64,000 bases of DNA from Methylophaga sp. (lineage in GTDB: Bacteria > Pseudomonadota > Gammaproteobacteria > Nitrosococcales > Methylophagaceae). Below, piece by piece: positions 713 to 56,071 of this stretch. The translations under genes were made by a program, and so were the position numbers. The notes under the pieces were generated by a model that was not told where the DNA came from, ran no database searches, and saw nothing but the letters and a program-made list of their open reading frames with translations. The stretch spans positions 62,001 through 126,000 of the forward strand of contig JALSLH010000083.1 of NCBI GenBank assembly GCA_026988435.1, in the 5' to 3' direction. The number at the start of each line of letters is the position of its first letter. Position 1 is the stretch's first letter.

Positions 713-1975
713 ATGAAAAATTTATATCCTCGGCAGTGTGCTGTGCGAGTAGTAGTGCTAACGTTAGCATTAGCATTTAATAGTGCGTCTAAGGCTGAAA
801 CTGTATTAGATATTGCACCATTGGCGGTATCAGACTTTGTTAAAAATAGTCTAAATCAACAACCTCGCTTACTTGCTGCACAGGCAGATATTGCAGCTTC
901 TTCTGCTAATTTACAGGCTGCAAAGCAGGCAATTTATAATCCTGAATTAGAGTTGGCATATGAAAATTCAAGTGCTAATACTAAAACAATAGGGATCAGT
1001 CAAACCTTAGATTGGGGTGACCAGCAGGGTAGTCGAACGGATCTTGCTGTGGCTGAGTTAAGTGTAATAAAGACCAATTACACGATAGCCGTACAAAATT
1101 TTGCTACTAGTCTTTTAACAGGATTAGCACAAAATCAAACGGCTAAACAGCTTGAGCAGTTGAGTGCAGAAGCGCTTAACTTAATGCAACAATTTAAACG
1201 TATTGCAGAACAACGTCACCAAGCAGGAGATTTAAATCAAGTTGATCTAAATCTTGCTCAGTTAGCATACAGTCAAGCATTAATGGAACATGCTAGTTCA
1301 TTATCACGGGTGACAGAAGTACATGAACAATTACGATCAATTGTAGGCATGCTTCCAGAACAATTGCCAGTTTTACCGGAGCAGTTATCTGAACCACTTT
1401 TGCAAGATAATCTAGATTCATTTTTGATGGAATTACCTGCTATTCGTTCCAAAATGGCCGAGGTTCAGGCAAATCGACAACAAATTGCATTACGAAAAAG
1501 CCAACAGGCTTGGAATCCCACTATTGGTGTAACAGCGGGTACAGAAGGAAGTGATAATTTAATTGGATTAAATCTTAGTATTCCGCTTAATGTTCGTAAT
1601 AACTTTAGTGCAGAAGTAGATGTTGCCTATCAACAGTTGATTGCCAGCGAGCAACGAGCACAACAGGATTATCGAAATATTCGAGCGAATATAGCGGCGA
1701 CAACGGTGCGTTATCAAAATTTACTAAGTGCTTGGGATAGCTGGCGACAAAATAGCCGGGATAGTGTTAGTCAGCAACTTATCCTGATCAATCAACTTTG
1801 GCAGGCGGGAGACATTAGTGCTTCTGATTACTTGTTACAAGTTAAACAAGCTCTTGAAATACAAGCAACAGGATTTGAGCTGAGAAATGAACTTTGGCAA
1901 ACCGCTTTTGAGTGGATGAGACTGACAGCTAGTGTGGATAAATGGCTGAATATCAATTTACAGGAAATTAATTAA
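713..1975 (+). CDS. czcC: CzcC-type outer-membrane channel of HME-RND efflux
   Basis: 420 residues, with a signal peptide ending near SASKAETV and the alpha-helical heptad-rich pattern of the TolC/OEP family in two repeats (for example AQADIAASSANLQAAKQ and EVQANRQQIALRKSQQ). OEP proteins form the trimeric outer-membrane exit duct for RND pumps. It is the first of three consecutive genes czcC-czcB-czcA, the standard order. The stop codon is directly followed by the ATG of czcB with no gap, implying translational coupling. The start has a GGAAA ribosome site about 6 bases upstream. The metal specificity cannot be read from this subunit; the name is by position and family. Confidence 0.88.
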   Translation: MKNLYPRQCAVRVVVLTLALAFNSASKAETVLDIAPLAVSDFVKNSLNQQPRLLAAQADIAASSANLQAAKQAIYNPELELAYENSSANTKTIGISQTLDWGDQQGSRTDLAVAELSVIKTNYTIAVQNFATSLLTGLAQNQTAKQLEQLSAEALNLMQQFKRIAEQRHQAGDLNQVDLNLAQLAYSQALMEHASSLSRVTEVHEQLRSIVGMLPEQLPVLPEQLSEPLLQDNLDSFLMELPAIRSKMAEVQANRQQIALRKSQQAWNPTIGVTAGTEGSDNLIGLNLSIPLNVRNNFSAEVDVAYQQLIASEQRAQQDYRNIRANIAATTVRYQNLLSAWDSWRQNSRDSVSQQLILINQLWQAGDISASDYLLQVKQALEIQATGFELRNELWQTAFEWMRLTASVDKWLNINLQEIN

Positions 1976-3160
1976 ATGATGAACTTTAAAATTTTACTAT
2001 CATTACTTTTGTTAGGTAGCACTGTTATTTATACACCTATTGCCACTGCTGCTAATGATGACCATGGCCACGAGAAAGAAAATCATGCGGAGTCTGGGGA
2101 AACCACGAAGGGCGAGACAGAACATGATGAAGCGGGGGTTGTTAAATTAACAAAGGAACAAATGAAACTAGCAGGCGTGATTGTTCAACCCCTACAATTG
2201 CAAGAAATGCAATCAATCGTTCAAGCGCCTGGTGAAGTGGCATTTAATACCTATAAAACAGTCGCTATTACGCCACGAATTACAGCTCAGCTTATCAAAC
2301 GACACGTGGTGTTAGGTGAGCATGTTAAAAAAGGGCAAGCCATTGCTACATTATCAAGTGTAGAAATGGCTGAAGCGCAAGGTAATGTCTTGGTGACATA
2401 CCAAGAATGGCGACGTGTAAAAAAACTGGGTAAAAAAATTGTTGCTGAACGGCGTTATATAGAAGCACAGATCAAGTGGGAGTTAGCAAAAGCCAAAGCT
2501 AGAGCTTATGGCATGACACAAGGCCAAATCGATAGATTGGTTAAAAGTAGTAACTTTTCACGTGCTAACGGTCGTTTTGCCCTTGTTGCCCTTATTGGCG
2601 GTACTGTTTTAAAAGAAGATTACATAGTGGGGCAACAGATAGAGCCTGGGCAAGAATTAAATGTGATTACCGATGAATCGAGTTTATGGGTGATGGCAAA
2701 TGTTGCGCCCGCTATAGCAAATCAAATTTCGGTCGGTAATAAAGCGACAGTGCAATGGGGTGACAAACGCTTTCCAGCAACTGTTTCTCAAATTTATCAT
2801 AATCTTGATGAGGTTACTCGTACCTCACGTGTTCGACTAAGTGTAGAAAATAAAGAGGACAGTTTACATGCTGGATTATTTGTTGAAACACAGATTGAAA
2901 TTTCTACTCAAAAAGAAACTGAGGAGGTATTACTGGTTCCAGAACATGCTGTTTTGCGTAGCCCCGATGGTGATTGGCAGGTACTTGTTGAGCAAGATGA
3001 AGCCGGTGAATTTAAGGGTGTTGAGGTGGAATTGTTAGATATACGTAATGGCCAAGCCATTATTGAAGGTTTAGCCATTGGAACCCCTATAGTTGTTAAA
3101 GGTGCTTTTTTTGTTCAATCTGAACTAGCGAAAAGCGGATTTGAAATTCACAATCATTAA
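1976..3160 (+). CDS. czcB: CzcB-type periplasmic adaptor (membrane fusion protein)
   Basis: 394 residues. A signal peptide (TPIATAANDD) is followed by a His/Glu-rich segment (DDHGHEKENH, ETEHDEAG) typical of heavy-metal adaptors, which is likely to bind divalent metal in the periplasm. Then come the barrel-sandwich/lipoyl halves (GEVAFNTYKTVAITPRITAQ, VVLGEHVKKGQAIATLSSVEMAEAQG), a helical hairpin, the second lipoyl half (GTVLKEDYIVGQQIEPGQEL) and the beta-barrel and membrane-proximal domains. It links the inner-membrane RND pump to the CzcC channel. Start ATGATG abuts the czcC stop; the gap to czcA is 15 bp. Family assignment is firm; substrate is not settled by this subunit. Confidence 0.9.
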   Translation: MMNFKILLSLLLLGSTVIYTPIATAANDDHGHEKENHAESGETTKGETEHDEAGVVKLTKEQMKLAGVIVQPLQLQEMQSIVQAPGEVAFNTYKTVAITPRITAQLIKRHVVLGEHVKKGQAIATLSSVEMAEAQGNVLVTYQEWRRVKKLGKKIVAERRYIEAQIKWELAKAKARAYGMTQGQIDRLVKSSNFSRANGRFALVALIGGTVLKEDYIVGQQIEPGQELNVITDESSLWVMANVAPAIANQISVGNKATVQWGDKRFPATVSQIYHNLDEVTRTSRVRLSVENKEDSLHAGLFVETQIEISTQKETEEVLLVPEHAVLRSPDGDWQVLVEQDEAGEFKGVEVELLDIRNGQAIIEGLAIGTPIVVKGAFFVQSELAKSGFEIHNH

Positions 3161-3175
3161 AAGAGAAATATTACT

Positions 3176-6100
3176 ATGTTAAATAAACTGATTGAAATTT
3201 CTATTCATAGTCGCTTATTAGTGGTATTGGCTTTGATTACTACACTACTTGGCGCGGGTATGATTTTACCTAAATTAAATTTAGATGCATTTCCTGATGT
3301 ATCGAATATTCAAGTTTCAATTAATACGGTGGCTGAAGGTTTGGCCTCGGAAGAAGTTGAGCAATTAATTACCTTTCCAGTTGAAGCGGTGATGTATAGC
3401 TTGCCTGATGTAGAAGAGGTACGTTCAATTTCTAAAACGGGCTTATCGGTGGTGACGGTTGTATTTAAAGAAGGAACCGATATTTACTTTGCAAGGCAAC
3501 TGGTGTTTGAACGTCTGCAAGCGGCTAAAGAACAAGTTCCAGCCGGAATTGGTACACCTCAAATGGGGCCGAATGTATCAGGCTTGAGTCAGGTCTTTCA
3601 ATATGCACTGATTACCGATGACTCACAAAAATACAATACATTAGCATTGCGAGGATTAAATGACTGGGTCGTCAAATTACTGCTTATGCCAGTAGAAGGC
3701 ATAACAGAAGTATTGTCTTTTGGTGGCGATGTACGCCAATATCAGGTGCAAATCGATCCGAAAAAATTATTGGCTTATGACATTACGATTAATGAAATAT
3801 CAGAGGCAATTGAAGCCAGCAATCGAAATGCCGGTGGTTGGTATATGGATCGTGGTGAAGAACAATTGGTTATTCGCGGTGTAGGATGGCTACGATCGAA
3901 TGAAGATGGACTGCATGATATTGGAAATATTCCCTTAAAGCAGGAGGACGGTATTGTTGTTCGTGTGAATGATGTGGCCACGGTTGAATTTGGCTCAGAA
4001 ATTCGTCAAGGAGCCGTAACATTATCACGGCGTGATGCTCAAGGCCAGCCTGAACATTTAGGTGAAGTAGTGACAGGCGTTATTTTAAAACGGATGGGTG
4101 CCAATACTAAGTTAACGATTGATAGTATCAAAGATCGTTTACCCTTAATCCAACAAGCATTACCTGTTGGCGTTACGATTGAAACGATTTATGATCAATC
4201 TGATCTGGTTGAAAAAGCAGTTTCTACAGTCAGCAAAGCCTTATTAGAAGCCTTTGTGCTGATTATTGTTATTTTAATGTTTTTCTTGATGAATGTGCGT
4301 GCGACATTATTAGTACTCATATCTGTACCTCTGTCCATTGGTTTAGCGTTAATGGCTATGGCCTATTGGGGGATTTCAGCTAATCTTATGTCGTTAGGCG
4401 GTTTAGCGATTGCGATAGGAATGATGGTTGATGGTTCGGTAGTGATGATGGAACATATTTTCAAACACCTCACCCATCCTGACCAACAGCATGAAAGGCT
4501 GGGGGGCGATATGATATCTACAGATAATAGTATCCAAAACCCAGGTGGAATGCCATTACGTATTATGGAATCTGCTAAAGAAGTAGGGCGACCAGTATTT
4601 TTTGCCGTGATGATCATTACCATCGTTTTTGCACCCTTATTTGCATTACAAGGTGTTGAGGGTAAGCTCTTCCAGCCAATGGCCATATCGATTGTATTAG
4701 CTATGTTGGCATCACTTTTTGTTGCTTTGATGGTTGTGCCATCATTAGCCTCTTATCTATTCAGAAAAGGAGTAAAGGAAAGACGCAACCTCTTATTTAT
4801 CTTAATCGAAAAAATCTACCAATTTATACTGTCTATTACACTGAAAGTGAAATTTCTTGTCGTAATAGCGTCGTTAGGTTTATTGATAGGGGCCGTGTCG
4901 TTATTACCCAAATTAGGGACAGAGTTTGTGCCCGAACTTGAGGAAGGAACGATAAATATACGCATTACCCTTGCCCCTTCATCCAGTTTAGATACATCAC
5001 TGAAAGTAGCCTCTGAAATGGAAAAGATTTTAATGCAATTTTCTGAAGTGTTATATGCCGCTAGCCGAGTTGGTCGAGCTGAAATTGGTGGTGATCCAGA
5101 GCCGGTCTCAAATATAGAAATATTTGTGGGGCTTAAGCCTGTCGAACAGTGGACTAATGCTAAAAACCGCAAAGAGTTACAAGTGATAATGGAAGAAAAA
5201 ATGTCGGTAATGCCGGGCCTATTATTTTCATTTTCACAGCCTATTGCTACACGTGTTGATGAATTATTATCCGGAACTAAAGCACAGCTGGCGATTAAGT
5301 TATTCGGAGCTGGTTTGGCCGTATTAGCAGAAAAAGGCACTGAAATAGAGAAAGTAGTGAAAACGATTAAAGGCAGTTCAGGTGTGGCAATGGAACAAAT
5401 AGAAGGAGAAGCCCAATTAGTGATACGACCTAATCGTGATCAACTTGCACGTTATGGTATCCCCATGGATCAAGTCATGAGTTTGGTCGGTGAAGCCATT
5501 GGTGGTCAGGCGGCCGGTCAAGTTATTAATGGCAATGAGCGCTATGATATTTATGTCAGGCTTGCCAAATCATATAGGGATAATGTTGAGGCCATTAAGG
5601 GATTGATTTTACAATCAGCGAATGGTTCATGGATACGTTTGGGAGATGTTGCAAGCGTAGCCATTGAATCAGGACCGCCACAAATACGTCGGGATGATGT
5701 ACAGCGTCGCGTGGTGATTCAGGCTAATGTACAAGATCGCGATATGGGAGGATTTGTAGCTGAGATTAATCAACGTATTACTGAAAATGTTGATTTACCT
5801 GCGGGTTACTCAGTGGTCTATGGCGGACAATTTGAAAATCAACAACGCGCTCAGGCTCGCTTGATGATTGTAGTGCCACTGTCTCTTGGTTTAATATTTT
5901 TATTATTGTATTTCATGTTTAATTCGATAGGGCAGGCACTATTGATCATGTTAAATGTGCCGTTAGCATTGATTGGAGGAATCGTCGCGCTGTATATCTC
6001 TGGCCAATATTTATCTGTACCAAGTTCTATTGGTTTTATCGCTTTATTTGGTGTCGCTGTACTCAATGGTGTGGTCATGGTCAATGCGATTAATCAACGC

Positions 6101-6355
6101 TTCGAAGGGGGGCTTGATTTCGGTAAAGCGGTATTTGAAGGCGCATCATCACGTCTTCGTCCCGTATTAATGACCGCTTCTATAGCGGCACTTGGCCTCA
6201 TTCCCATGTTGCTTGCTACCGGTGTCGGTTCTGAAATACAGCGACCATTAGCAACGGTTGTTGTCGGTGGATTAATCAGTGCCACATTGTTAACTTTATT
6301 TGTGGTACCCGTTTTGTATGAAACTTTTTCAAAACGAAAATATCGTGCTGAGTAG
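3176..6355 (+). CDS. czcA: HME-RND heavy-metal efflux pump (CzcA/CusA family)
   Basis: 1059 residues, the usual length of the CusA/CzcA family. N-terminal TM1 is followed by LDAFPDVSNIQVSINTVAEG, two large periplasmic porter loops, the central TM2-TM6 block, and a second half with TM8-TM12. The proton-relay helix TM4 reads GGLAIAIGMMVDGSVVMMEH. Relative to Cupriavidus CzcA (LDFGxxVDGAxxxxE) the second Asp and the Glu are present but the first Asp is Ala, a pattern closer to CusA-like AxGxMVD. So the symbol reflects operon order rather than proven Zn/Co/Cd specificity. It uses the proton gradient to export cations from the periplasm through the czcC channel. ATG is 15 bp after czcB. Confidence 0.88.
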   Translation: MLNKLIEISIHSRLLVVLALITTLLGAGMILPKLNLDAFPDVSNIQVSINTVAEGLASEEVEQLITFPVEAVMYSLPDVEEVRSISKTGLSVVTVVFKEGTDIYFARQLVFERLQAAKEQVPAGIGTPQMGPNVSGLSQVFQYALITDDSQKYNTLALRGLNDWVVKLLLMPVEGITEVLSFGGDVRQYQVQIDPKKLLAYDITINEISEAIEASNRNAGGWYMDRGEEQLVIRGVGWLRSNEDGLHDIGNIPLKQEDGIVVRVNDVATVEFGSEIRQGAVTLSRRDAQGQPEHLGEVVTGVILKRMGANTKLTIDSIKDRLPLIQQALPVGVTIETIYDQSDLVEKAVSTVSKALLEAFVLIIVILMFFLMNVRATLLVLISVPLSIGLALMAMAYWGISANLMSLGGLAIAIGMMVDGSVVMMEHIFKHLTHPDQQHERLGGDMISTDNSIQNPGGMPLRIMESAKEVGRPVFFAVMIITIVFAPLFALQGVEGKLFQPMAISIVLAMLASLFVALMVVPSLASYLFRKGVKERRNLLFILIEKIYQFILSITLKVKFLVVIASLGLLIGAVSLLPKLGTEFVPELEEGTINIRITLAPSSSLDTSLKVASEMEKILMQFSEVLYAASRVGRAEIGGDPEPVSNIEIFVGLKPVEQWTNAKNRKELQVIMEEKMSVMPGLLFSFSQPIATRVDELLSGTKAQLAIKLFGAGLAVLAEKGTEIEKVVKTIKGSSGVAMEQIEGEAQLVIRPNRDQLARYGIPMDQVMSLVGEAIGGQAAGQVINGNERYDIYVRLAKSYRDNVEAIKGLILQSANGSWIRLGDVASVAIESGPPQIRRDDVQRRVVIQANVQDRDMGGFVAEINQRITENVDLPAGYSVVYGGQFENQQRAQARLMIVVPLSLGLIFLLLYFMFNSIGQALLIMLNVPLALIGGIVALYISGQYLSVPSSIGFIALFGVAVLNGVVMVNAINQRFEGGLDFGKAVFEGASSRLRPVLMTASIAALGLIPMLLATGVGSEIQRPLATVVVGGLISATLLTLFVVPVLYETFSKRKYRAE

Positions 6356-6451
6356 AGTAGAGATTGCGACTTTCAATGGATTGCCATTTCAAGTTGTAGA
6401 TTATTATGAAATATCCAAAAACTATAAACAGTAATAAGGAAACTTAAAATC

Positions 6452-8389
6452 ATGTCTGATAATTGTGAAGAAGGCTCAGCTTGCGCCGTAGACTTTAGTA
6501 AAGAAAGTGAAGAAAAGGTGTCATTCACTATCAACAAGGAATATATCAAACCTGTAATAGGTCTGATTTTTTTATTGATTGGAATCGCCTTTGATTATTT
6601 TGATATAGCTTTTTTTAGCAGGGATGTATCCTTGATCTGGTTTGGTACTATTTACCTTTTGATCGGAGGTCCAATTGTTTTAAAAGCCCTGAAATTAATT
6701 TTAAAAGGTAATTTTTACAACGAATTTGTATTGATGTCTCTTGCAACGATAGGCGCTTTTTTAATTGGTGCCTATGCTGAAGGTGTTGCCGTTATGCTTT
6801 TTTATGTAATCGGTGAGCTGTTTCAAGAAGCAGCTGTTGCGAAAGCCAAACGTTCTATTGAAGCACTGTTAAAAGTACAAGTTGAAGAAGTGACCGTTTT
6901 AGAAAAGGGTAAACAGATTGTTAAACATCCTAGGGACGTGACAATTGGGCAAATCATTCAAACCAAATCGGGGCAAAAAATTGCTCTAGATGGTATCTTG
7001 CTTTCTGATGTTGCTACATTAAATACGGCAGCATTAACGGGTGAATCTGTACCAGATGATAAGAAAAAAGGTGACACTGTATTAGCAGGGATGGTTAATA
7101 TTTCTAACATCATTGAAATAAAAACGACCCGCAACTATGCCGATACAAAACTTTCAAAAATATTAAAGTTAGTACAAGAAGCCGTTGGAAGAAAAGCAAA
7201 AACACAGTTGTTAATCAGCCGGCTAGCGGGGATTTATACCCCCATTGTATTTTGGCTGGCGATTGCATTGATTGTAACTCCCTATTTTTATTTAGGTGAT
7301 GCCTATTTATTTCAAGATTGGTTTCAACGCGCCTTAATTTTTCTCGTTATATCTTGCCCTTGTGCTTTAGTAATATCTATTCCTCTAGGCTATTTTGGTG
7401 GTATTGGAGCTGGTTCAAAGAATGGTATTTTATTTAAAGGGTCAAATTTTTTAGATCTAATGACGAAAGTAAACACTGTGGTGATGGATAAAACAGGTAC
7501 ATTAACTAAAGGTGTTTTTGAAGTGCAAGACGTTGTTTCTCTGACTAGAGATAAAGATGTGTTCATTGAGCTAGTGGCTATTTTAGAAAAACATTCAACA
7601 CATCCTATTGCAGAGGCAATTGTAAAGTATGCAAAGATTGAAAACCCCAACGATGAAGTGAGTAATATTGAAGAAATACCAGGCCATGGAATGAAGGGGG
7701 TAGTAGGAAAACACAGTGTTTTAGCAGGAAATATCAAGTTATTAGAAAAGTTTAATATTTCATTTGATGAGGCACTTCGAGACAACACTGAAACCATAGT
7801 CGTAGTTGCCATAGATAATAGTTTTTCTGGTTATATCACAATTGCAGATACGTTAAAAGATGATGCGCATGAGGCGATTAGTGCCTTACATGAAATATCA
7901 CAAATTAATGAAGTTGTGATGCTTTCTGGTGATAAACAATTAGTAGTTGATAAAATTGCCAAACAATTAGGTATTGATAAAGCGATAGGTGGCTTATTGC
8001 CCGAAGGTAAAATTCGTGAAGTAGAAAAATTAAAAGCCGAGGGGAAAATCGTGGCATTCATTGGTGATGGAATCAATGACGCCCCCGTAATCACTCTTTC
8101 TGATGTTGGGTTAGCAATGGGGGGGCTAGGTTCTGATGCTGCTATAGAAACAGCGGATGTAATTATTCAAACTGACCAACCATCAAAAATTGCAACTGCG
8201 ATAAAAATTGGTAACGAAACCAACAAAATTATATGGCAAAACATCACCTTGGCGTTAGGAGTGAAAATCATAGTTTTAATTTTAGGCGCAATGGGAATGG
8301 CAACCCTATGGGAGGCTGTAATCGCCGATGTGGGTGTTGCTTTGTTAGCCATCCTCAATGCTGTAAGGGTTCAGAGAATGACATTTTAA
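6452..8389 (+). CDS. P1B-2 type Zn/Cd/Pb-exporting ATPase without HMA domain
   Basis: 645 residues. Diagnostic motifs are all present: TGES actuator (LTGESVPDDKKKG), the CPC metal-site helix (SCPCALVISIP), the phosphorylation site DKTGTLTKG, the HP motif (KHSTHPIAEAIV) and GDGINDAP. The last helices contain the conserved Lys (ALGVK) and Asp (AVIADVGVALL) that define the P1B-2 Zn2+/Cd2+/Pb2+ group (as in ZntA and CadA). The N terminus lacks the usual GxxCxxC HMA domain; instead there is only a short Cys-containing tail (NCEEGSACAVD) before the first helix. It moves metal from cytoplasm to periplasm, which the RND pump upstream could then expel. It lies 96 bp downstream of czcA on the same strand, with AAGGAAA as ribosome site. 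Confidence 0.87.
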   Translation: MSDNCEEGSACAVDFSKESEEKVSFTINKEYIKPVIGLIFLLIGIAFDYFDIAFFSRDVSLIWFGTIYLLIGGPIVLKALKLILKGNFYNEFVLMSLATIGAFLIGAYAEGVAVMLFYVIGELFQEAAVAKAKRSIEALLKVQVEEVTVLEKGKQIVKHPRDVTIGQIIQTKSGQKIALDGILLSDVATLNTAALTGESVPDDKKKGDTVLAGMVNISNIIEIKTTRNYADTKLSKILKLVQEAVGRKAKTQLLISRLAGIYTPIVFWLAIALIVTPYFYLGDAYLFQDWFQRALIFLVISCPCALVISIPLGYFGGIGAGSKNGILFKGSNFLDLMTKVNTVVMDKTGTLTKGVFEVQDVVSLTRDKDVFIELVAILEKHSTHPIAEAIVKYAKIENPNDEVSNIEEIPGHGMKGVVGKHSVLAGNIKLLEKFNISFDEALRDNTETIVVVAIDNSFSGYITIADTLKDDAHEAISALHEISQINEVVMLSGDKQLVVDKIAKQLGIDKAIGGLLPEGKIREVEKLKAEGKIVAFIGDGINDAPVITLSDVGLAMGGLGSDAAIETADVIIQTDQPSKIATAIKIGNETNKIIWQNITLALGVKIIVLILGAMGMATLWEAVIADVGVALLAILNAVRVQRMTF

Positions 8390-8524: not shown

Positions 8525-10390
8525 ATGAAAAAAATTATTATTTATTTGATGTTTGCTGTGAGCTTATATAGTCAGGCAATCAATGCCAATAGCCAACAAC
8601 TTTTGCAATTAATCGATTATTTAGGTGTCGACTATGCTGGGGCTGTGGAACAAGGTCGAGTTATAAACGAAGCAGAATATAAAGAAATGCTTGATTTTTC
8701 TGCGGGCATTCATCAACAACTTGTAGCATTACCAGAGAATGACGTTAAAGATGAATTGTTGGTGCTAGCTGAAAAATTGTCGCAATGGGTAAGGGATAAA
8801 AGGCCTGCACAACAGATCAAATCACTTACTGATACACTTCACAGCACGGTTATCAGTGCTTATAACATCACGGTCACACCTTACACACAACCAGAGTTAA
8901 AGCAGGCGGCATTATTGTATAAGCAACATTGTGCTTCATGTCATGGTGTGACGGGAGAGGGTAATGGTTCTGAAGCTTTAGGGATGGATCCTCCACCAAT
9001 AAATTTTCATGATATTAACCGCTACCAACAACGTACCTTATATGGATTATTCAGTACCATTACCCAAGGTGTAGCGGGAACAGGTATGACAGCTTTTGCT
9101 GAATTAACTGATAAACAACGTTGGTCATTGGCTTTTTATGTGGGAAGTTTAGCTGAAAAAAATGATATAAAACCTGATGGTGTTAATAATCATCCTCTTG
9201 CTGATATGACCATGCTGACAACAATAACACCTTCTCAAGCTAAGGCTCAATATGGGGAGCAAGGTGAGCGGATAATGACCTATTTACGCTCACATCCAGA
9301 TGCACTTTTTACTGATAAAACATCACCAATCGAATTTACCAAACAAAAGTTGCGAGATTCTTTTTCGGCTTATCAAAAGCAAGAAAATGATTTGTCTTAT
9401 CAGTTAGCAGTATCAGCCTATCTTGATGGTTATGAACTGATTGAGCAAAATATTGGTGCGATGGATAAACAATTAATGTTTGATATTGAAGCAGCGATGA
9501 CGGATTTACGTAATAAGATCCGTTTAACGGTATCAATTGATTCGGTTGATAATCAGATCACGACGATCAATAAAAAACTGGATGTGGCCGCAGCACTATT
9601 AACAAGTAAAAGCTTATCAAAAGAGGCGACATTTGCGGGTGCTTTTTTCATTCTATTGCGTGAAGGTTTGGAAGCAATATTAATTATTGCCGCCCTAGTT
9701 GCTTTTTTAGTGAAAACAAAACGCCCTGATGGTTTACGTTACATACATTTTGGCTGGGTGAGTGCACTCCTTGTCGGTATTTTAACGTGGTGGGCATCTG
9801 TGTCATTATTTAACATTTCAGGCGCATCACGTGAAATAACAGAAGGCATCGCCGCGATCGTTGCGACTGTCGTTTTACTGTATGTGGGGTTTTGGATGCA
9901 TGATAAAACGAGTGCAGCGAAATGGAAAAGTTTTATTGATGATAATATGCATAAGGCGTTATCTTCAGGTACGTTATGGACATTGTCAGGTTTGTCGTTT
10001 ATTGCAGTTTATCGTGAAGCATTTGAAACTATCTTATTTTATCAAGCATTATGGGTGCAAACAGGCAGCACGGGCCAGAGTATGGTGTTGAGTGGATTTA
10101 TCACTGCCGCTGCTGTGCTTGTGGTTGTTGGCTGGTTAATTCTGCGATATAGCGTACGTTTACCATTACGACAGTTTTTTGGTGTAACAGGGTGGTTGAT
10201 GTTTATTTTAGCAATTATTTTTGCAGGAAAAGGCATCGCCGCATTACAAGAGGCAGGCGTATTGATGTCTAACCCCGTCAACTTTTTCCGAGTCGATTTA
10301 TTAGGGATCTATCCTAATTTACAAGGGTTATCGGCGCAACTCGTTTTAATTGTACTGGCACTATTTTTATTGAGGAAGAAGTCAAATTAG
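8525..10390 (+). CDS. FTR1-family iron permease with N-terminal cytochrome c domain
   Basis: 621 residues from ATG 8525, chosen over the track TTG start (which overlaps the Fur-like box) because it yields a clean signal peptide MKKIIIYLMFAVSLYSQAINA. The periplasmic N-terminal half has one haem c motif CASCH near residue 136 with a downstream Met-containing region (GMTAFAELTDKQRW). The C-terminal half is an FTR1 permease with seven or so helices and the two iron-binding REXXE-type motifs REGLE (about residue 379) and REAFE (about 497). Fusions of cytochrome c to FTR1 are known in proteobacteria; the haem domain is thought to provide Fe(II)/Fe(III) redox at the entry to the channel. It would import iron across the inner membrane. 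No EfeO/EfeB partner follows, and the Fur-like box supports iron control. Confidence 0.82.
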   Translation: MKKIIIYLMFAVSLYSQAINANSQQLLQLIDYLGVDYAGAVEQGRVINEAEYKEMLDFSAGIHQQLVALPENDVKDELLVLAEKLSQWVRDKRPAQQIKSLTDTLHSTVISAYNITVTPYTQPELKQAALLYKQHCASCHGVTGEGNGSEALGMDPPPINFHDINRYQQRTLYGLFSTITQGVAGTGMTAFAELTDKQRWSLAFYVGSLAEKNDIKPDGVNNHPLADMTMLTTITPSQAKAQYGEQGERIMTYLRSHPDALFTDKTSPIEFTKQKLRDSFSAYQKQENDLSYQLAVSAYLDGYELIEQNIGAMDKQLMFDIEAAMTDLRNKIRLTVSIDSVDNQITTINKKLDVAAALLTSKSLSKEATFAGAFFILLREGLEAILIIAALVAFLVKTKRPDGLRYIHFGWVSALLVGILTWWASVSLFNISGASREITEGIAAIVATVVLLYVGFWMHDKTSAAKWKSFIDDNMHKALSSGTLWTLSGLSFIAVYREAFETILFYQALWVQTGSTGQSMVLSGFITAAAVLVVVGWLILRYSVRLPLRQFFGVTGWLMFILAIIFAGKGIAALQEAGVLMSNPVNFFRVDLLGIYPNLQGLSAQLVLIVLALFLLRKKSN

Positions 10391-10474: not shown

Positions 10475-10491
10475 TTTAAGGTAACCTTAAT
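10475..10491 (+). promoter_or_regulatory. PmrA-box-like direct repeat upstream of eptA
   Basis: TTTAAGgtaacCTTAAT is an exact match to the published PmrA box YTTAAK-N5-YTTAAK. The same bases also form a perfect 7-1-7 palindrome (TTAAGGT-A-ACCTTAA, 10476-10490). A GATAAT candidate -10 begins 9 bases downstream at 10500. eptA (pmrC) is the classic PmrA target in enterics, so location supports function; the cognate regulator in this organism is not identified. Confidence 0.6.
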
Positions 10492-10543
10492 ATTCACATG
10501 ATAATCTGGTCTTTTAACTAAACCTTGGAAAGTAAGCACTCAA

Positions 10544-12139
10544 ATGAAGAAAATAAGTCCATCAACACTGATCATCATCACCGCTATTTTCTTTGTTATT
10601 TTTAACAATATAGCTTTTTTCCAAGAAGTGCTGACCCATTACCCATTGACAGGCATAACGACCACCTTATTTATCGTATCGCTGGCCGTCGTTTTCAGTT
10701 GTGTAAATATTATTATCCTAGCATTATTATGCTATCGATATACTATTAAACCGGTATTAATTACGTTGTTATTACTTTCAGCAGCGTGTGCATATTTTAT
10801 GGATAGTTATCATGTAATTATTGATGATGTGATGATTGATAATATCCTAAAAACAGATACTGCTGAAGCCTTTGATTTGCTCAGTATTAAACAGTTTTTA
10901 TATGTATTGTTTTTAGGGGTATTACCTGCAATATGGGTTTATAGAGTTCCGATTTCTCATCCACCACTAAAAAAGGCCATTTTATCTAAAACGCTATTAA
11001 TCGGTGCGTTATTGCTTATTGCTGTTATCACTATTCTGTCGTTAGGTGGCTTTTATGCTTCATTTTTCCGCGAACACAAAGCACTTAGAAATTATGCTAA
11101 TCCTTCTTATTACATTTATTCTGTGGGAAAATATCTATCGGAACAATTCGGTGGTGAGACTCAAATATTTACACCTATTGGTTTAGATGCTCAAATTAGA
11201 TCTGCAGACCCTGATAGGGAATTAATTATTTTTATAGTGGGCGAAACAGCACGTGCGGATCATTTTTCACTCAATGGTTATGATAAAAAAACCAATCCCA
11301 GATTAGAAAAGGAAAATATTATCAATTTTGATAATGTGTGGTCGTGTGGTACATCAACAGCCATATCTGTGCCGTGCATTTTTTCACTTGATGGTCGGGC
11401 AGACTATAGTCGTAACAAGGCTCGAATGACTGGAAATTTATTAGATGTAGCTCAACATGTAGGGGCCAATGTGCTTTGGCTTGATAATAATTCCAGTTCT
11501 AAAGGGGTGGCCGACAGATCTAAATATCAAAGCTATAAAACGCCGGAGAATAATCCTATCTGTGACAGTGAATGTCGTGATGTAGGTATGCTCGCTCATC
11601 TACAAGCCTATATCGACAGCCATCCAACAGGTGATATTTTTATCATCTTGCACCAAATGGGAAATCATGGACCAGCCTATTACAAACGTTACCCTAAAGA
11701 ATTTGAGAAATTCACACCTGTCTGTCAGAGCAACCAACTGGAACAATGTAGTCGTGAAGAAATTAACAACGCTTATGATAATGCCATTTTATATACTGAT
11801 TTTTTCTTATCTGAAACAATTAAATTATTGAAAAGGAATAATAATGATTTCGAAGCGGCTTTATTGTATGTCAGTGACCACGGTGAATCGTTAGGGGAAA
11901 ATGGCTTATATTTACATGGACTGCCGTATATGCTTGCACCTGATTCACAAAAGCATGTTCCTATGTTGATGTGGTTTGGAGATAACTTTGATAGCAATGA
12001 AGTTGATCTTGATTTACTCAAGCAAAAAAGCAGTCAAAAATACACACATGATAATATTTTTCATACGATTTTAGGTTTATTAGAAATAAATAGTGAAATA
12101 TATGATCCTGCTTTAGATATTATTCCTCATCATGACTAA
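10544..12139 (+). CDS. eptA: Lipid A phosphoethanolamine transferase EptA/PmrC family
   Basis: 531 residues: five N-terminal transmembrane helices (to about residue 175, including the EptA/B N-terminal domain) and a periplasmic sulfatase-fold domain. The nucleophile region reads IVGETARADHFSLNGY with Thr at residue 235. The conserved Cys segment CGTSTAISVPCIFS and the metal ligands in SDHGESLGENGLYLHG are present. EptA transfers phosphoethanolamine from phosphatidylethanolamine to lipid A phosphates, lowering negative charge and sensitivity to cationic peptides such as polymyxin. This is a chromosomal housekeeping-type EptA; the same fold occurs in MCR proteins but nothing here indicates mobility. 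Its stop overlaps the PAP2 gene by 8 bases, and a PmrA-like box lies 53 bp upstream. Confidence 0.9.
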   Translation: MKKISPSTLIIITAIFFVIFNNIAFFQEVLTHYPLTGITTTLFIVSLAVVFSCVNIIILALLCYRYTIKPVLITLLLLSAACAYFMDSYHVIIDDVMIDNILKTDTAEAFDLLSIKQFLYVLFLGVLPAIWVYRVPISHPPLKKAILSKTLLIGALLLIAVITILSLGGFYASFFREHKALRNYANPSYYIYSVGKYLSEQFGGETQIFTPIGLDAQIRSADPDRELIIFIVGETARADHFSLNGYDKKTNPRLEKENIINFDNVWSCGTSTAISVPCIFSLDGRADYSRNKARMTGNLLDVAQHVGANVLWLDNNSSSKGVADRSKYQSYKTPENNPICDSECRDVGMLAHLQAYIDSHPTGDIFIILHQMGNHGPAYYKRYPKEFEKFTPVCQSNQLEQCSREEINNAYDNAILYTDFFLSETIKLLKRNNNDFEAALLYVSDHGESLGENGLYLHGLPYMLAPDSQKHVPMLMWFGDNFDSNEVDLDLLKQKSSQKYTHDNIFHTILGLLEINSEIYDPALDIIPHHD

Positions 12140-12821
12140 ACAGATTATTTTTACGAGCATTGCCTTAATGGTAACAATCGTATTTTTTGAATTGACCAAT
12201 ATTGACCTATTACTACAAAATTATTTTTATGATATGCAGTTACATACGTGGTTAGTGAACGATGATAATGTATTACTAGATCTTATCTTCTATAGTGGAA
12301 TTAAAAAAATCTATATTGCATTTGCTCTAGCACTGCTGACTTCATTAGTATTTTTTTATAAAAGGCCTTTAATTCAACACTACAAACAAGGCATCATTAT
12401 TGTGCTTCTTTCCTTAATTATCGTTCCTTCAACAGTTAGTCTGCTGAAAGCAAGTACTAATGTTGCTTGTCCTAAACACTTAACGCTCTATGGCGGTGAT
12501 TATCCTTATGTTAGCGTCTTAGACGCCTATCCATCAGACTTTCACCAAGAAAAGAAGGTTAAGTGCTTTCCTGCTGGTCATGCAAGTGGTGGTTTTGCAT
12601 TAATGGCGCTTTTCTTTCTTTTCAAAAGCAAAAAGAATAAGCGTATTGCATTGGTGTCAGCTATCACTATAGGATGGGGAACAGGCAGTTATAAAATGCT
12701 GATTGGTGACCATTTCCTTAGTCATACCATTGTTACGATGGTAATCGCTTGGCTACTCATTTTATGTATCACTACTATTACTCATTTAGTTTTCAAAAGA
12801 ATTGGCAGAAACATAAAGTAG
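12132..12821 (+). CDS. PAP2-family membrane phosphatase (LpxE/LpxT-like)
   Basis: 229 residues with about six helices. PAP2 motifs are of the CP variant: KASTNVACPKHL (motif 1, Cys-Pro in place of Arg-Pro), CFPAGHASGGFAL (motif 2 with the catalytic His) and GDHFLSHTIVTMV (motif 3). It is translationally coupled to eptA (8-base overlap). In many Gram-negatives a PAP2 enzyme next to eptA acts on lipid A or undecaprenyl phosphates, either removing a phosphate before phosphoethanolamine addition or recycling lipid carrier. The family is firm; lipid substrate is inferred from the neighbour only. Confidence 0.8.
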   Translation: MTKQIIFTSIALMVTIVFFELTNIDLLLQNYFYDMQLHTWLVNDDNVLLDLIFYSGIKKIYIAFALALLTSLVFFYKRPLIQHYKQGIIIVLLSLIIVPSTVSLLKASTNVACPKHLTLYGGDYPYVSVLDAYPSDFHQEKKVKCFPAGHASGGFALMALFFLFKSKKNKRIALVSAITIGWGTGSYKMLIGDHFLSHTIVTMVIAWLLILCITTITHLVFKRIGRNIK

Positions 12822-12957: not shown

Positions 12958-14196
12958 TTAGTATGTTCCTGCGGAACGTGCATGATGACGAGGTAGTTTT
13001 CTTGATTGCAATGCCGCAGCAGCGACAAATAAAGAAGAAGCGATGAGGCAACCTATCAAATTGTATTGCTGATATATCAAACCTGATAATATTGTACCTG
13101 TTAATCGTCCAGCCGCATTTGCCATATAATAAAAACCGACATTCATCGCCACCTCGTTATGGTCTGACCATTCAACGATAAGATAGGAATGCACCGCTGA
13201 ATTTAGTGCAAACACAACTGCAAATAGCCCGAGACCAATGATTATTACATAAGTAGGAGCGATTTGATTATAGAGAGCTAGCGCCATGCTTGCAGGTAAC
13301 AGCATTAGAATCAGGGCGAGTTGTTGCGTTGTTTTACCATCAGGGGAATGGCCCTGCTTTTTATTTTTAAGTAAACGGGGAGTCAATGCTTGAAGCACCC
13401 CATAAGCAATGATCCACACGGCAAAAAAACCACCTGTTTGTTCAAAATTCCAGCCTAGAGTAGTGGTTAAATAAACAGGTAAGCCGATGACAAACCAGAC
13501 ATCACGAGAACAAAACAAAAAGGCTCGAGCAGCAGATAACCAATTTATGGCAGCCTTGTTTGAGAGTAACTGTGAAAATTTAGGCTTAGATTTAGTTGTA
13601 CCTAAATCGCGTGGTAATAACCACCATGTAACAAGGAGAATAATAAATAAAGAGCCTGCAAGTACAAGTAATGCACCTCTAAAACCATAAATTGCAAGCA
13701 GCAGCCCGCCTAAGAAAAACCCAACTCCTTTAAGGGTGTTTTTAGATCCCGTTAAAATAGCGATCCACTTAAATAATTGCTTTGATGCCGCTCGTTTGCT
13801 TGTTGTTGAAGGAATAAATAACTTAACGCTAGCTTTAGCACTCATTTTGTTAAGATCTTTTGCTATTCCTGATAATGCCTGTGCAACCATGACATAGACA
13901 ATAGTGAGATATTCTGTAGGTACGGTGAGCATTAATAAAGCAAAGACTTGTAATAACATACCTAGATGCATAGTGGTATTGAGACCAAATCGAGCACCCA
14001 ACCAGCCGCCGACCAAGTTCGTTACAATGCCAAAAAACTCATAAAACAAAAATAAACTGGCAATGGCTAGCGGTGTGTAACCGAGTTGGTGAAAGTACAA
14101 CACTACCAACATACGAATGGCACCATCAGTTAGAGTAAATCCCCAATAAGCTGCTGTAATAACTGCATAATGTCGTAGGCTGTTGACTCGATTCAT
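12958..14196 (-). CDS. arsJ: ArsJ, organoarsenical (1-arseno-3-phosphoglycerate) efflux MFS transporter
   Basis: 412 residues with about twelve hydrophobic segments in MFS arrangement. The N terminus (YAVITAAYWGFTLTDGAIRM, GWLGARFGLNTTM) is characteristic of the ArsJ group. It starts 2 bases after the stop of a GAPDH gene, and an ArsR regulator precedes both. In the described pathway (Pseudomonas aeruginosa), GAPDH joins arsenate to glyceraldehyde 3-phosphate making unstable 1-arseno-3-phosphoglycerate, which ArsJ extrudes, after which it hydrolyses outside to release arsenate. The three-gene context makes this specific MFS assignment strong. No arsB, arsC or acr3 gene is present, so arsenate is handled without reduction at this locus. 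Confidence 0.9.
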   Translation of the reverse strand: MNRVNSLRHYAVITAAYWGFTLTDGAIRMLVVLYFHQLGYTPLAIASLFLFYEFFGIVTNLVGGWLGARFGLNTTMHLGMLLQVFALLMLTVPTEYLTIVYVMVAQALSGIAKDLNKMSAKASVKLFIPSTTSKRAASKQLFKWIAILTGSKNTLKGVGFFLGGLLLAIYGFRGALLVLAGSLFIILLVTWWLLPRDLGTTKSKPKFSQLLSNKAAINWLSAARAFLFCSRDVWFVIGLPVYLTTTLGWNFEQTGGFFAVWIIAYGVLQALTPRLLKNKKQGHSPDGKTTQQLALILMLLPASMALALYNQIAPTYVIIIGLGLFAVVFALNSAVHSYLIVEWSDHNEVAMNVGFYYMANAAGRLTGTILSGLIYQQYNLIGCLIASSLFVAAAALQSRKLPRHHARSAGTY

Positions 14197-14198
14197 AA

Positions 14199-15212
14199 TT
14201 AGAGTGATCGAGCCATCATCGTAGCAAGATCGATCATACGGTTAACATAGCCCCATTCATTGTCATACCAAGCGAGTACTTTTACTTGTGTATTATTAAT
14301 GACCATTGTTGAAGGTGCATCAATAATCCCTGAACGTGGATCATTGGTATAATCGATAGACACTAAAGGCCGTGTCTCATAACCAAGAATATCTTTTAAC
14401 GATAATTCGGATGCAGCTCTAAATAAGGCATTTACTTCTTCTACATTTGTTTCTCTATTCGATTCAAAGACAAAGTCAGTAAGCGAACCGTTTAATAATG
14501 GGACGCGTACAGCCAGTCCATTTAATTTACCCTCCAACTCAGGGAATATTTTGGTGATAGCCTTGGCGGAACCTGTTGTGGTTGGAATTAAAGACTGACC
14601 ACAGGCACGGGCACGGCGTAAATCCTTGTGTCCCTTATCGACAATGGTTTGGGTATTCGTGATGTTATGAATAGTGGTCATCGAACCATGTTTTATGCCC
14701 AAAGTCTCATGCATGACTTTAACTATTGGAGCAAGACAGTTTGTTGTGCATGAAGCGGCAGTCACAATGTGATGTTTAGTTGGGTCATAAAGACTATGAT
14801 TAACACCGTAAACGAGGTTAAGAGCAGGATCAGGGCATGGTGCTGACACTAAGATCTTCTGAATACCTTGGTCAAAATACGGCTGAAGCTGTTCTGATGT
14901 TTTAAATTTGCCAGAGCACTCCAGTAAAATATCAATGCCATACTGTGACCAATTTACTTCAGCTGGTGAATCGTACTGGCTAAAACTGATAACGTTATCA
15001 TCAATCTTTATCTGTGAACCTGTGCATGAAACAGCTTTATCTTCACCCCAACGACCATGTACAGAATCAAATTGCAGTAAATGTGCATGGCATTCTGCAT
15101 TACCGTTGATTTCATTAATATGTACAAACTCAATTTCATCACTGTTCCAACCAGCCTGCAAAGCCAGTTTTCCCATACGGCCAAAACCATTAATACCTAC
15201 ACGTATTGTCAT
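14199..15212 (-). CDS. gapdh: ArsJ-associated glyceraldehyde-3-phosphate dehydrogenase
   Basis: 337 residues, normal GAPDH length. Rossmann motif [10 protein letters not shown] at residues 6-15, catalytic Cys155 in [11 protein letters not shown], and [11 protein letters not shown] and [20 protein letters not shown] in the catalytic domain. It lies between arsR and arsJ in a tight leftward operon (15 bp from arsR, 2 bp from arsJ), the context that distinguishes arsenate-detoxifying GAPDH from the glycolytic enzyme. Role: oxidative addition of arsenate to glyceraldehyde 3-phosphate. Biochemically it probably also accepts phosphate; the dedicated role is inferred from context. A ribosome site is visible upstream (AGGAAT on the minus strand). 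Confidence 0.88.
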
Positions 15213-15227
15213 TTTATATTCCTAGTT

Positions 15228-15578
15228 CTAACAGCACACTTGATTCGGTCTGTCTTTCATGGTGATGAGGGCAATGCGATCTTCTTTATATGGTGAAGTA
15301 TCAGCAATGCCGGCAGTTGTTATTTGAACTGCATCGTTAATCCACGCAGGAATGTCATCGTTGATGCGGTAATAAATCCACAAACCTTGGCGGCGAGATA
15401 ACAATAAGCCTGCTTCTTTGAGTTGAGCAAGGTGGCGAGAGATGACAGGTTGTGCTAATTCTAATGAATGAGTTAACTCACAAACACAGAGCTCATCGAC
15501 CTGTTTAATTAAGATGAGTGCTCTCAATCTCATTGGATGTGATAAAACAGAGTAAAAATCATCAGCTTGTAAGTTCAT
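15228..15578 (-). CDS. arsR: ArsR-family As(III)-responsive repressor
   Basis: 116 residues with a winged-helix fold. The metalloid-binding signature ELCVCEL places Cys31 and Cys33 at the start of the DNA-recognition helix region, as in the classic ArsR of E. coli, followed by LAQPVISRHLAQLKEAGLL (recognition helix). The C terminus ends in a further Cys pair (NQVCC), possible extra As(III) ligands. First gene of the arsR-gapdh-arsJ operon; it should repress its own promoter through the long palindrome at 15600-15631 and release on As(III). The sensing of As(III) while the pathway consumes As(V) implies some arsenate reduction elsewhere in the cell. Confidence 0.9.
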   Translation of the reverse strand: MNLQADDFYSVLSHPMRLRALILIKQVDELCVCELTHSLELAQPVISRHLAQLKEAGLLLSRRQGLWIYYRINDDIPAWINDAVQITTAGIADTSPYKEDRIALITMKDRPNQVCC

Positions 15579-49819: not shown

Positions 49820-51373
49820 TTATCCAGAGTTCAGGGTAATAATAAAATGAGCACCAATGTCAGTGGGTTCAGCATGGATAGTGCCTCTCCATGCTTTAAG
49901 CGTAGATTCAATAATACCTAAACCCAGGCCTGTGCCACCCGTGTCACGGCGAGTAGTGAAAAAAGGTGTAAAAATACGGCTTCGATTAGCAGGTGAAATG
50001 CCGGTGCCATTATCATGGATAGAGAGTTGTAGTTGTTCATCGCTATGGCTCAATTTAATAAGCACTTTATTCGCTTTATGTTGCAGGCTATTGTCGAATA
50101 AATTAGCAAAGACAAGTGTTAATGCCTCGACTGAGACGCTTATATTTTCATCGAGGCTATCATCTAAGATCAGCTTAAGTTGTTTTGCTTTATAAATAGC
50201 TTGTAACTGGTTTAAAACCTGCAAAATATTACAGGTTTCTGTTGATGCTTGCAGTGCATCCGCTCTAGCCTGTTGTAGTAGACGTGTGACCAGATTTTCT
50301 AATCGTTTGGTATCTTGTTGAAGATTATCCAAAAAGCGCTGGCGCTGCTCAACGGGCATCTCATCTAAATGATCTTGTAAAAGTTCTAATGTGCCTTGTA
50401 TTGATGTGAGCGGGGTTTTAAATTCGTGCGACACATGTGCTGCAAATTGCTCAATATATTGCGTGCGTTCATGCACTATTTGTGACATTTCAGCAAAGCT
50501 GTTTGACAGTTCAGCTAGCTCATAGGTGCCAGGTTGTTGAATGGCATTAATTGTTTCAACTTCGCCTCGTGTTACTTTTTTTGTTTGGTCGATTAATTCT
50601 CGAATAGGTCGTGATAAACGCGATGAGATAAATAAGACGATTAGGCTAGTGACACCTAGCAATAAAAGGGCAATAAAAAATACCCGGCCTTTAATGCCAT
50701 CAAGGTGTTTTAATATGTTTTGAGGTGTGCGAGATAGGTAGACCACGCCGTAAACACGACCTTGATCGATGATCGGAAAGGCGGTGAACACTCGAATTCC
50801 AGTGCCACGGCTCAGTGATGCAAGGGGAGGTTGCGCTTGATCAGATATCCGCTGACGCAATACAGAACGGTATTTGCCTTTTAATGCGGCTTGAACTTCT
50901 TCAATGTGAGCAAATGACAAGCCTATTTCTTCACGCCCCGCGATGACGATGCCATTTTCATCAAGAATTCTGATCCCTGCCAAGGTAAATTGTTGGGTAT
51001 TACGCAAGATAGTTTGCATTTTTTGCCCAGCTTGTTTTGCTACTAGATTTTCAGATGCTGGACTATCTAAAACTATTCCATCGGGGCGAGGAGGCAATGT
51101 TTGTTGTTTTGATAGATCTAATTCAGGTTTGATAGGGGTGTAATGACCACTTAATAAAGTGTGGTTCTTATTAATTAATTGGCGGTATACAGCTGCAAAA
51201 GCAGCCGACTGCGTGATTAGCTCTAATTCAGTCTTTTGAACGAGCTCATTTTCATAAAAACGAAAGAAATATAAACTGCCGAGAGGTAAAAGTAATATGG
51301 ATAACATGAGCAGTAATAAGATAGTGCGAAGCCGAAATAGTCGCTTGCTCTGAGGTGTTGCGTTTATATGCAT
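49820..51373 (-). CDS. creC: Sensor histidine kinase CreC
   Basis: 517 residues: two helices flanking a periplasmic sensor (about 40-230), HAMP, HisKA (FAAHVSHEFKTPLTSIQGTLELL) and HATPase (LANLFDNSL, DNGTGISPANR, GTGLGLGIIEST). Partner of the regulator just upstream (10-base overlap) and of creD downstream, giving the creBCD set. Confidence 0.88.
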   Translation of the reverse strand: MHINATPQSKRLFRLRTILLLLMLSILLLPLGSLYFFRFYENELVQKTELELITQSAAFAAVYRQLINKNHTLLSGHYTPIKPELDLSKQQTLPPRPDGIVLDSPASENLVAKQAGQKMQTILRNTQQFTLAGIRILDENGIVIAGREEIGLSFAHIEEVQAALKGKYRSVLRQRISDQAQPPLASLSRGTGIRVFTAFPIIDQGRVYGVVYLSRTPQNILKHLDGIKGRVFFIALLLLGVTSLIVLFISSRLSRPIRELIDQTKKVTRGEVETINAIQQPGTYELAELSNSFAEMSQIVHERTQYIEQFAAHVSHEFKTPLTSIQGTLELLQDHLDEMPVEQRQRFLDNLQQDTKRLENLVTRLLQQARADALQASTETCNILQVLNQLQAIYKAKQLKLILDDSLDENISVSVEALTLVFANLFDNSLQHKANKVLIKLSHSDEQLQLSIHDNGTGISPANRSRIFTPFFTTRRDTGGTGLGLGIIESTLKAWRGTIHAEPTDIGAHFIITLNSG

Positions 51374-52053
51374 GCGCTTAGTTTATAGCCAACACCGTGT
51401 TGAGTCTCGATAATATTGTTACAGCCTGCTGTTGAGAATTTTTGACGAATATGACGGATATGACTATCAATAGTGCGGTCACTGACCACAATATTATGTT
51501 GATAAGCACCATCCATAATGGCATTTCGACTATAAATGATTTTAGGGTTGTTAATCATTTGAGCTAAGATTGAAAACTCTACGGCAGTGAGTGAAATATC
51601 TTTTTCATCCCAGCGAACAGTGTGTTGTTCGATATTGATCTGTAATCGACCATGAATTAGGTCTTTTTCATCCGCATCGCCGACTTTTTGAGCTTGTGTA
51701 CGTTTTAGAATGGCTTTAATCCGGGCAACTAACTCTCTAGGGCTAAAAGGTTTGGTGACATAATCATCACCGCCAATCTCAAGCCCGAGAATGCGGTCAA
51801 TTTCATCATCACGAGATGATAAAAATAAAATGGGAATATCTGATATTTTACGGATTTCTCGGCAACACTCTAGCCCGTCCATTTCAGGCATATTTATATC
51901 TAAAACGATTAAGTCGAAAGACGATTGTTTTAACAGCGTGATCGCTTGTTGGCCATGAGTCGCATTGCTGACCCGTAAGTCAGCTTTTTCAAGAGCAAAA
52001 TTGATGACTTCGCGAATATGTAAATCATCATCTACGATTAGAATATTTGCCAT
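51364..52053 (-). CDS. creB: Response regulator CreB
   Basis: 229 residues of the OmpR/PhoB type: ILIVDDDLHIREV, acceptor Asp in LIVLDINMPEMDG, KPFSPRELVARIKAIL, and winged-helix DNA-binding region ending RTIDSHIRHIRQKFSTAG. Coupled to creC. Binding sites with the E. coli cre tag (TTCAC-N6-TTCAC) were looked for before creD and not found. Confidence 0.88.
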   Translation of the reverse strand: MANILIVDDDLHIREVINFALEKADLRVSNATHGQQAITLLKQSSFDLIVLDINMPEMDGLECCREIRKISDIPILFLSSRDDEIDRILGLEIGGDDYVTKPFSPRELVARIKAILKRTQAQKVGDADEKDLIHGRLQINIEQHTVRWDEKDISLTAVEFSILAQMINNPKIIYSRNAIMDGAYQHNIVVSDRTIDSHIRHIRQKFSTAGCNNIIETQHGVGYKLSACI

Positions 52054-55559: not shown

Positions 55560-56071
55560 AAAAATTTGGCGAAGAAGGGTCATATGAAGATGAATGGGAA
55601 TTTGAGAAAAGTAAATCTCAGATAAAACGTGAATTATTAGCCTTAAAAGACTTAGGCAAAGAATTACTTAAATTACCGGTTAAAGATCTTGATAAACTTA
55701 ATTTGTCTGAACGTTTGTATGAGGCGCTTGTAAAAGCCCAAGGCATGACAAAAGGCGCCTTAAAACGGCAAACGGGTACGATTGGCGGTTTAATGGTCCA
55801 TGAAGACTACGATGAGATTAAACTGAGTATTGACAAAATACGCCAGCAGCACAATGGTGAAATTAAACAGTTTCACCAACTCGAAATATGGCGAGATCAA
55901 CTGCTGACTGGTGATAATGAAGTGATGACTACGTTACGCAATCGATTCGAAGCGTTTGATATTCAGCATGTTAGGCAATTAATCAGAAATGCTAATAAAG
56001 AAGTTGAGCAAGAAAAACCGCCAAAATCGGCGCGTATTTTATTTAAATACCTACAACAGCTTAGCTCTTAG
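55556..56071 (+). CDS. darP: Ribosome assembly factor DarP/YjgA (DUF615)
   Basis: 171 residues with the family segments EWEFEKSKSQIKRELLALKDLGKELLKLP and REAL-type LSERLYEALVKAQ plus HVRQLIRNANKEVEQEKPPKSARILFKYL. Acts in late 50S assembly. Third gene of the coupled sulP-uspA-darP set; its 3' end overlaps the convergent kinase by 11 bases. Confidence 0.9.
   Translation: MKKFGEEGSYEDEWEFEKSKSQIKRELLALKDLGKELLKLPVKDLDKLNLSERLYEALVKAQGMTKGALKRQTGTIGGLMVHEDYDEIKLSIDKIRQQHNGEIKQFHQLEIWRDQLLTGDNEVMTTLRNRFEAFDIQHVRQLIRNANKEVEQEKPPKSARILFKYLQQLSS

Follow-up and report, generated by a model that had tools for sequence, protein, structure and literature searches.

A tandem PmrA/QseB/BqsR-type box before eptA in Methylophaga is very probably a conserved operator of lipopolysaccharide modification genes

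The 17-base site before eptA at 10475–10491 (+) of the window, by which we mean the whole 64,000-nucleotide stretch of Methylophaga DNA analysed here, is very probably a binding site for a regulator of the PmrA/QseB type, and the prediction is very probably real because the same tandem repeat stands before eptA and other cell-surface genes throughout the family. The reading that we prefer, with a probability of roughly 0.83, is that of a class II-type activator operator for a PmrA/QseB-clade regulator, most likely the one encoded on contig C20 of the same genome, which would drive both the eptA-pap2 operon and an LPS modification operon.

The site reads TTTAAGGTAACCTTAAT and a motif check of the window gave 0 mismatches to YTTAAKNNNNNYTTAAK, as had been claimed in a sequence-only reading of this DNA, which described an exact PmrA-box match upstream of eptA. 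As in PmrA-type operators, it is made up of two YTTAAK hexamers arranged head to tail and 5 bp apart, TTTAAG at 10475–10480 (+) and CTTAAT at 10486–10491 (+), separated by the spacer GTAAC, with a mean information content across eptA promoters of 1.47 and 1.30 bits per column, respectively. The box lies within a 153-bp gap between the end of an FTR1-type gene at 10390 and the eptA ATG at 10544, at a distance of 52 bp from the latter. Comparison with the aligned promoters points to a -10-like element, TAATCT (10502–10507, +), 10 bp after the box, the alternative being GATAAT (10500–10505, +), 8 bp after it; when the eptA and methyltransferase promoters are aligned, a TAnnnT-like signal is seen 10–15 bases downstream of the box, and the TAATCT element before eptA in this genome is weak. 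No sigma-70 consensus promoter was detected at eptA by a simple scan, as would be expected if the box takes the place of the -35 element, the layout anticipated for an activator of the OmpR family.

The gene downstream, eptA (10544–12139, +), encodes a lipid A phosphoethanolamine transferase with the Pfam domains EptA_B_N and Sulfatase, which belongs to NCBIfam family NF028537 (E 5e-203, 675 bits against a cut-off of 500) and does not reach the cut-off of the EptA equivalog NF008619 (528 of 660). The MCR families were also considered for this protein and rejected, the best of them being MCR-6 with 470 bits against a cut-off of 1235. A PAP2-family phosphatase gene (12132–12821, +; Pfam PAP2) overlaps eptA by 8 bp, forming an eptA-pap2 operon, and the best NCBIfam matches of its product are the lipid A PAP2 phosphatase and then PAP2_near_MCR1, both below cut-off. 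Directly upstream of the box, a cytochrome c domain is fused to an FTR1 iron permease domain in a single protein (8528–10390, +; Pfam Cytochrom_C and FTR1). Three efflux genes (CusA-like) with the gene for a Zn/Cd-type heavy-metal P-type ATPase after them occupy 713–8389, and genes for an MFS transporter, a GAPDH-like and an ArsR-like protein, the ArsR domain of which was confirmed, stand in a row at 12958–15578 (-), resembling an ArsJ/GAPDH/ArsR arsenate-resistance cluster.

Evidence for the function of the box was obtained by comparing relatives. We gathered EptA homologues across 57 genomes of the family and scanned 160 bp in front of each gene, promoters being non-redundant in all promoter counts and a box being accepted with at most 1 mismatch. 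A box was found in 9/14 eptA promoters (0.53 expected, P 7e-11), mostly 66–78 bp before the start, and in 13/17 promoters of a methyltransferase operon (0.46 expected, P 1e-18), small P values which overstate certainty because relatives share ancestry and are not independent samples. Exact boxes precede eptA in six of the 14 (0.02 expected), and a box stands at the head of the regulator's operon in 7/8 non-redundant cases (0.38 expected), or 10 of the 11 relatives examined. At the same threshold, 39 of 52 target genes had a box as compared to 11 of the 361 remaining genes of the loci retrieved, and among the few exact matches in these controls some had themselves been fetched by motif or adjoin an eptA operon. 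The box therefore stands in the promoter of the target gene and is conserved along with that target, as in PmrA-type operators.

In the aligned promoters the hexamers hold 1.3–1.5 bits per column, the spacer 0.4–0.7, the flanks about 0.1–0.4, with 0.1–0.2 on the upstream side, and the 25 bp upstream in eptA promoters 0.22, and it is this divergence of flanks and spacers that supports constraint on the hexamers. The earlier assignment of a PmrA-type box to eptA is thus borne out, since the hexamers are conserved before eptA and two other operons and the flanks diverge. Five of the 14 non-redundant eptA promoters are boxless, three of them preceding an EptA 70–73% identical to the one described here, and in one boxless case (L120) eptA lies downstream of another two-component pair. 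When the whole 153-bp intergenic DNA was searched for in relatives no match was obtained, so it is not conserved as a whole.

Within the genome under study, a second site, CTTAAGTATCCCTTAAT, is located on contig C53 in front of the methyltransferase operon counted above, which encodes a SAM methyltransferase, a Kdo/WaaP-family LPS kinase, a carbamoyltransferase and a sulfatase-fold protein. Of the 18 genomes that encode the methyltransferase, 17 also have an orthologue of the C20 regulator, and in the remaining one, G021, the methyltransferase gene (L178) is interrupted by a stop. A different layout was observed in G038 and G041 (L242 1–8809 and L243), where an operon consisting of dgkA, PAP2, a second PmrA/QseB-type regulator, kinase and eptA genes is divergent from the sulfatase-fold, methyltransferase and LPS kinase genes, and the box between the two, CTTAAGCGTTGCTTAAG, reads on both strands.

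The regulator itself is present as an orthologue in 17/17 genomes with a close eptA and in 16/40 other genomes (Fisher 8e-6), a co-occurrence that could partly reflect genome size. Four genomes (G014, G016, G020 and G023) have eptA immediately after the regulator operon in the same orientation, and a box with no more than 1 mismatch is present between the two. In relatives this operon comprises genes for T_hemolysin-like, AMP ligase, haem-oxygenase-like, SDR and TPR proteins, the regulator and the kinase, followed by a cupredoxin, an FTR1-like protein and one unknown gene. No box was found immediately upstream of the regulator gene itself (0/22, used as a control), the box being placed at the operon head instead, which from its position suggests self-regulation in relatives. 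The first gene of the operon (T_hemolysin-like) was sought in the present genome and was not found, and the operon head is unseen here because contig C20 begins inside the operon. The FTR1-type gene before eptA differs from the FTR1-like gene of the relatives' regulator operon, and only the gene neighbourhood suggests a link to iron.

Counting within one genome gives a different impression. In this 2.57-Mb, 95-contig assembly, the closest relatives of which are Methylophaga, the exact box is found 21 times as compared to 26 times for the reversed pattern, with 12 of the 21 inside ORFs, and raw enrichment was absent from both window and genome. These counts are what favours a chance match in A+T-rich intergenic DNA, which we nevertheless regard as very improbable, the least probable of the alternatives, given that the box recurs at the same position in front of orthologous genes much more often than expected and more often than at the 361 other genes, and that the second site in the same genome is likewise 52 bp from its start codon. 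Dinucleotide shuffling of the 153-bp gap gave a probability of 0.002 for one box on the + strand; when the downstream TAnnnT was included, three matches were left in this genome, two of them being eptA and the methyltransferase operon, and in G036 the eptA promoter was the sole match. A site that resembles noise by one-genome counting can in this way appear as a conserved operator once relatives are compared.

The same DNA contains, as had been pointed out, a 7-1-7 palindrome (TTAAGGT and ACCTTAA around a central A; 10476–10490, no strand) that is perfect over 15 bases, and this had led to the proposal that the site could bind an unrelated dimeric regulator. Such a symmetric dimer might be, e.g., of the TetR, MerR or LysR type. 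The perfection of the repeat and the low probability of a palindromic box arising by chance in the 153-bp gap (P about 1e-4) speak for this proposal, but the palindrome is not independent of the box, since TTAA is self-complementary and cores 11 bp apart give 4/7 pairs automatically, and the window has many 7-1-7 palindromes (10 vs 6.2 expected). All other conserved boxes have 4–6/7 pairs, mostly imposed by the TTAA cores and with no full palindrome among them, and the 17-mer, with up to one mismatch, occurs in no other of the 57 family genomes. The palindrome was rejected as a conserved unit, being full only in this copy, while the tandem repeat is kept; because the spacer and the flanking bases vary and full palindromy is not seen in any other conserved box, the operator is best described as a direct repeat, and on these comparisons we judge the palindrome to be incidental to this copy. 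There is also no conserved dyad between -35 and -10 elements as in MerR-type operators, and the spacing from box to -10 is unsuited to a MerR-type promoter. A symmetric operator is thus highly unlikely here. No intrinsic terminator was found at the palindrome.

The remaining alternative concerns the protein that would bind the box. Seven OmpR-family regulators are encoded in the genome and two of them in the window, namely a CreB/BaeR-like one (51364–52053) and a PhoP-like one (57406–58086, -); the latter had been correctly recognised as PhoP-like, though its description as the window's sole such regulator has to be extended by the former. Use of the box by the PhoP-like protein is favoured by its location in the same window, its grouping with E. 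coli PhoP (89/95) and the adjoining PhoQ-like histidine kinase (56061–57416, -), for which the best NCBIfam match is PhoQ (E 2e-67, below cut-off, spanning residues 180–446). Its recognition helix, NVIEVFIKRLRAK, has F-I-K-R and not H-x-H-[NH], so that it is without the PmrA helix residues; the box published for PhoP is unlike that of PmrA; and it is a regulator of the PmrA/QseB type that has a conserved box of its own and is encoded next to eptA in relatives. The PhoP-like protein, which had been put forward as a binder, is therefore very unlikely to be the main one.

A true PmrA/QseB-clade regulator is encoded on another contig (G000:C20:1018-1677) and is the best candidate. It has the Response_reg and Trans_reg_C (Pfam) architecture of OmpR-type regulators, falls in a clade of 13 with E. 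coli BasR and QseB (99/99) and is the only one of the seven that groups with BasR/QseB and has H-x-H. Its recognition helix, NTIEVHIHHLRKK, resembles those of BasR (NTLEVHIHNLRDK) and QseB (NAVEVHVHHLRRK), and it has Asn188, His193 and His195 of the PmrA residues known to take part in DNA recognition (Asn188, His193, His195 and Asn196; PMC3973317, PMC4660055). Its partner kinase is QseC-type, with 2CSK_N, HAMP, HisKA and HATPase domains. An Fe-sensing kinase of the PmrB/BqsS type was considered and rejected, EKAE being found in this genome only and ExxE being unconserved in the orthologues.

From the geometry and conservation of the box, and from the class, co-occurrence and linkage of the regulator, all obtained by computation, we infer the following mechanism. 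The QseC-like kinase would phosphorylate the C20 regulator, two copies of which would bind TTTAAG and CTTAAT head to tail in place of the -35 element and place RNA polymerase at a -10 element some 10 bp further on. Such binding would activate rather than repress eptA-pap2, and lipid A, the presumed substrate of EptA, would then receive phosphoethanolamine. Further targets of this regulator would be the LPS methyltransferase/LPS kinase/carbamoyltransferase operon and, among relatives, the operon in which it is itself encoded, with the cupredoxin, FTR1-like and haem-oxygenase-like genes.

The closest parallel is PmrAB (BasSR) of Salmonella, E. coli and Klebsiella, which uses the same tandem hexamers with N5 in boxes before eptA/pmrC and arn, and for which both the consensus and head-to-tail binding have been described (PMC3973317, PMC10729948). 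In E. coli K-12 the distance from the end of the box, CTTAAGGTTGGCTTAAT, to the eptA ATG is 46 bp, as compared to 52 bp here, and H-x-H and Asn188 are shared by the recognition helices of PmrA and the C20 protein. The present system departs from PmrAB in that the regulator gene is separate from this eptA, the kinase resembles QseC, with 2CSK_N as its sensor domain and no conserved ExxE, and the predicted regulon includes the LPS methyltransferase/kinase/carbamoyltransferase operon. BqsRS/CarRS of Pseudomonas aeruginosa is Fe(II)-responsive and has the operator TTAAG-N6-TTAAG (PMC4682146, PMC12666569), which is nearly that of the family boxes (TTAAG-N6-TTAA[GT]), a likeness at the level of the operator; an activator, cationic-stress targets and an association with iron are further points of likeness. 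BqsS senses iron via the Glu residues of its ExxE motif (PMC12666569), which is not conserved in the kinase described here. With E. coli QseBC there are in common the clade (99/99), a helix with VHIHH here and VHVHH in QseB, and the kinase domains 2CSK_N, HAMP, HisKA and HATPase, although the present box is different from the QseB consensus of PMC10729948 and the targets here are LPS-modification genes.

In our search, which misses most subscription journals, no literature was found on lipid A regulation or such a regulon in Methylophaga. The operator type (the PmrA box, nearly the BqsR operator) is known, and the Methylophaga regulon would be a new member of the PmrA/QseB/BqsR type, which adds marine methylotrophs to the range of this kind of lipid A control and points to a candidate regulator, to two additional operons as targets and to a link with metals that can be tested. 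As a tentative idea, which we consider possible but rather doubtful, this Methylophagaceae switch of the PmrA/QseB type, the kinase of which lacks a conserved PmrB/BqsS-like iron motif but shares its operon with genes for cupredoxin, FTR1-like and haem-oxygenase-like proteins, may receive metal or redox state as its signal and couple it to a wider LPS remodelling (phosphoethanolamine, methyl, phosphate and carbamoyl), FTR1 having been recruited a second time beside eptA here.

The gene pair is also reminiscent of the mcr-1-pap2 and Moraxella eptA-pap2 cassettes, in which an eptA-type gene overlaps or adjoins a PAP2 gene; by contrast, the present pair is below the MCR and PAP2_near_MCR1 cut-offs, is chromosomal and belongs to a marine methylotroph lineage. 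Three eptA-pap2 copies in differing neighbourhoods were found in genome G008 (L119, L137 and L144), suggesting a mobile or duplicating cassette. Another overlap of box and palindrome was seen in E. coli K-12, where a 14-2-14 palindrome with T-rich DNA after it, perhaps the adiC terminator, coincides in part with the PmrA box of eptA (L149 5641–5670).
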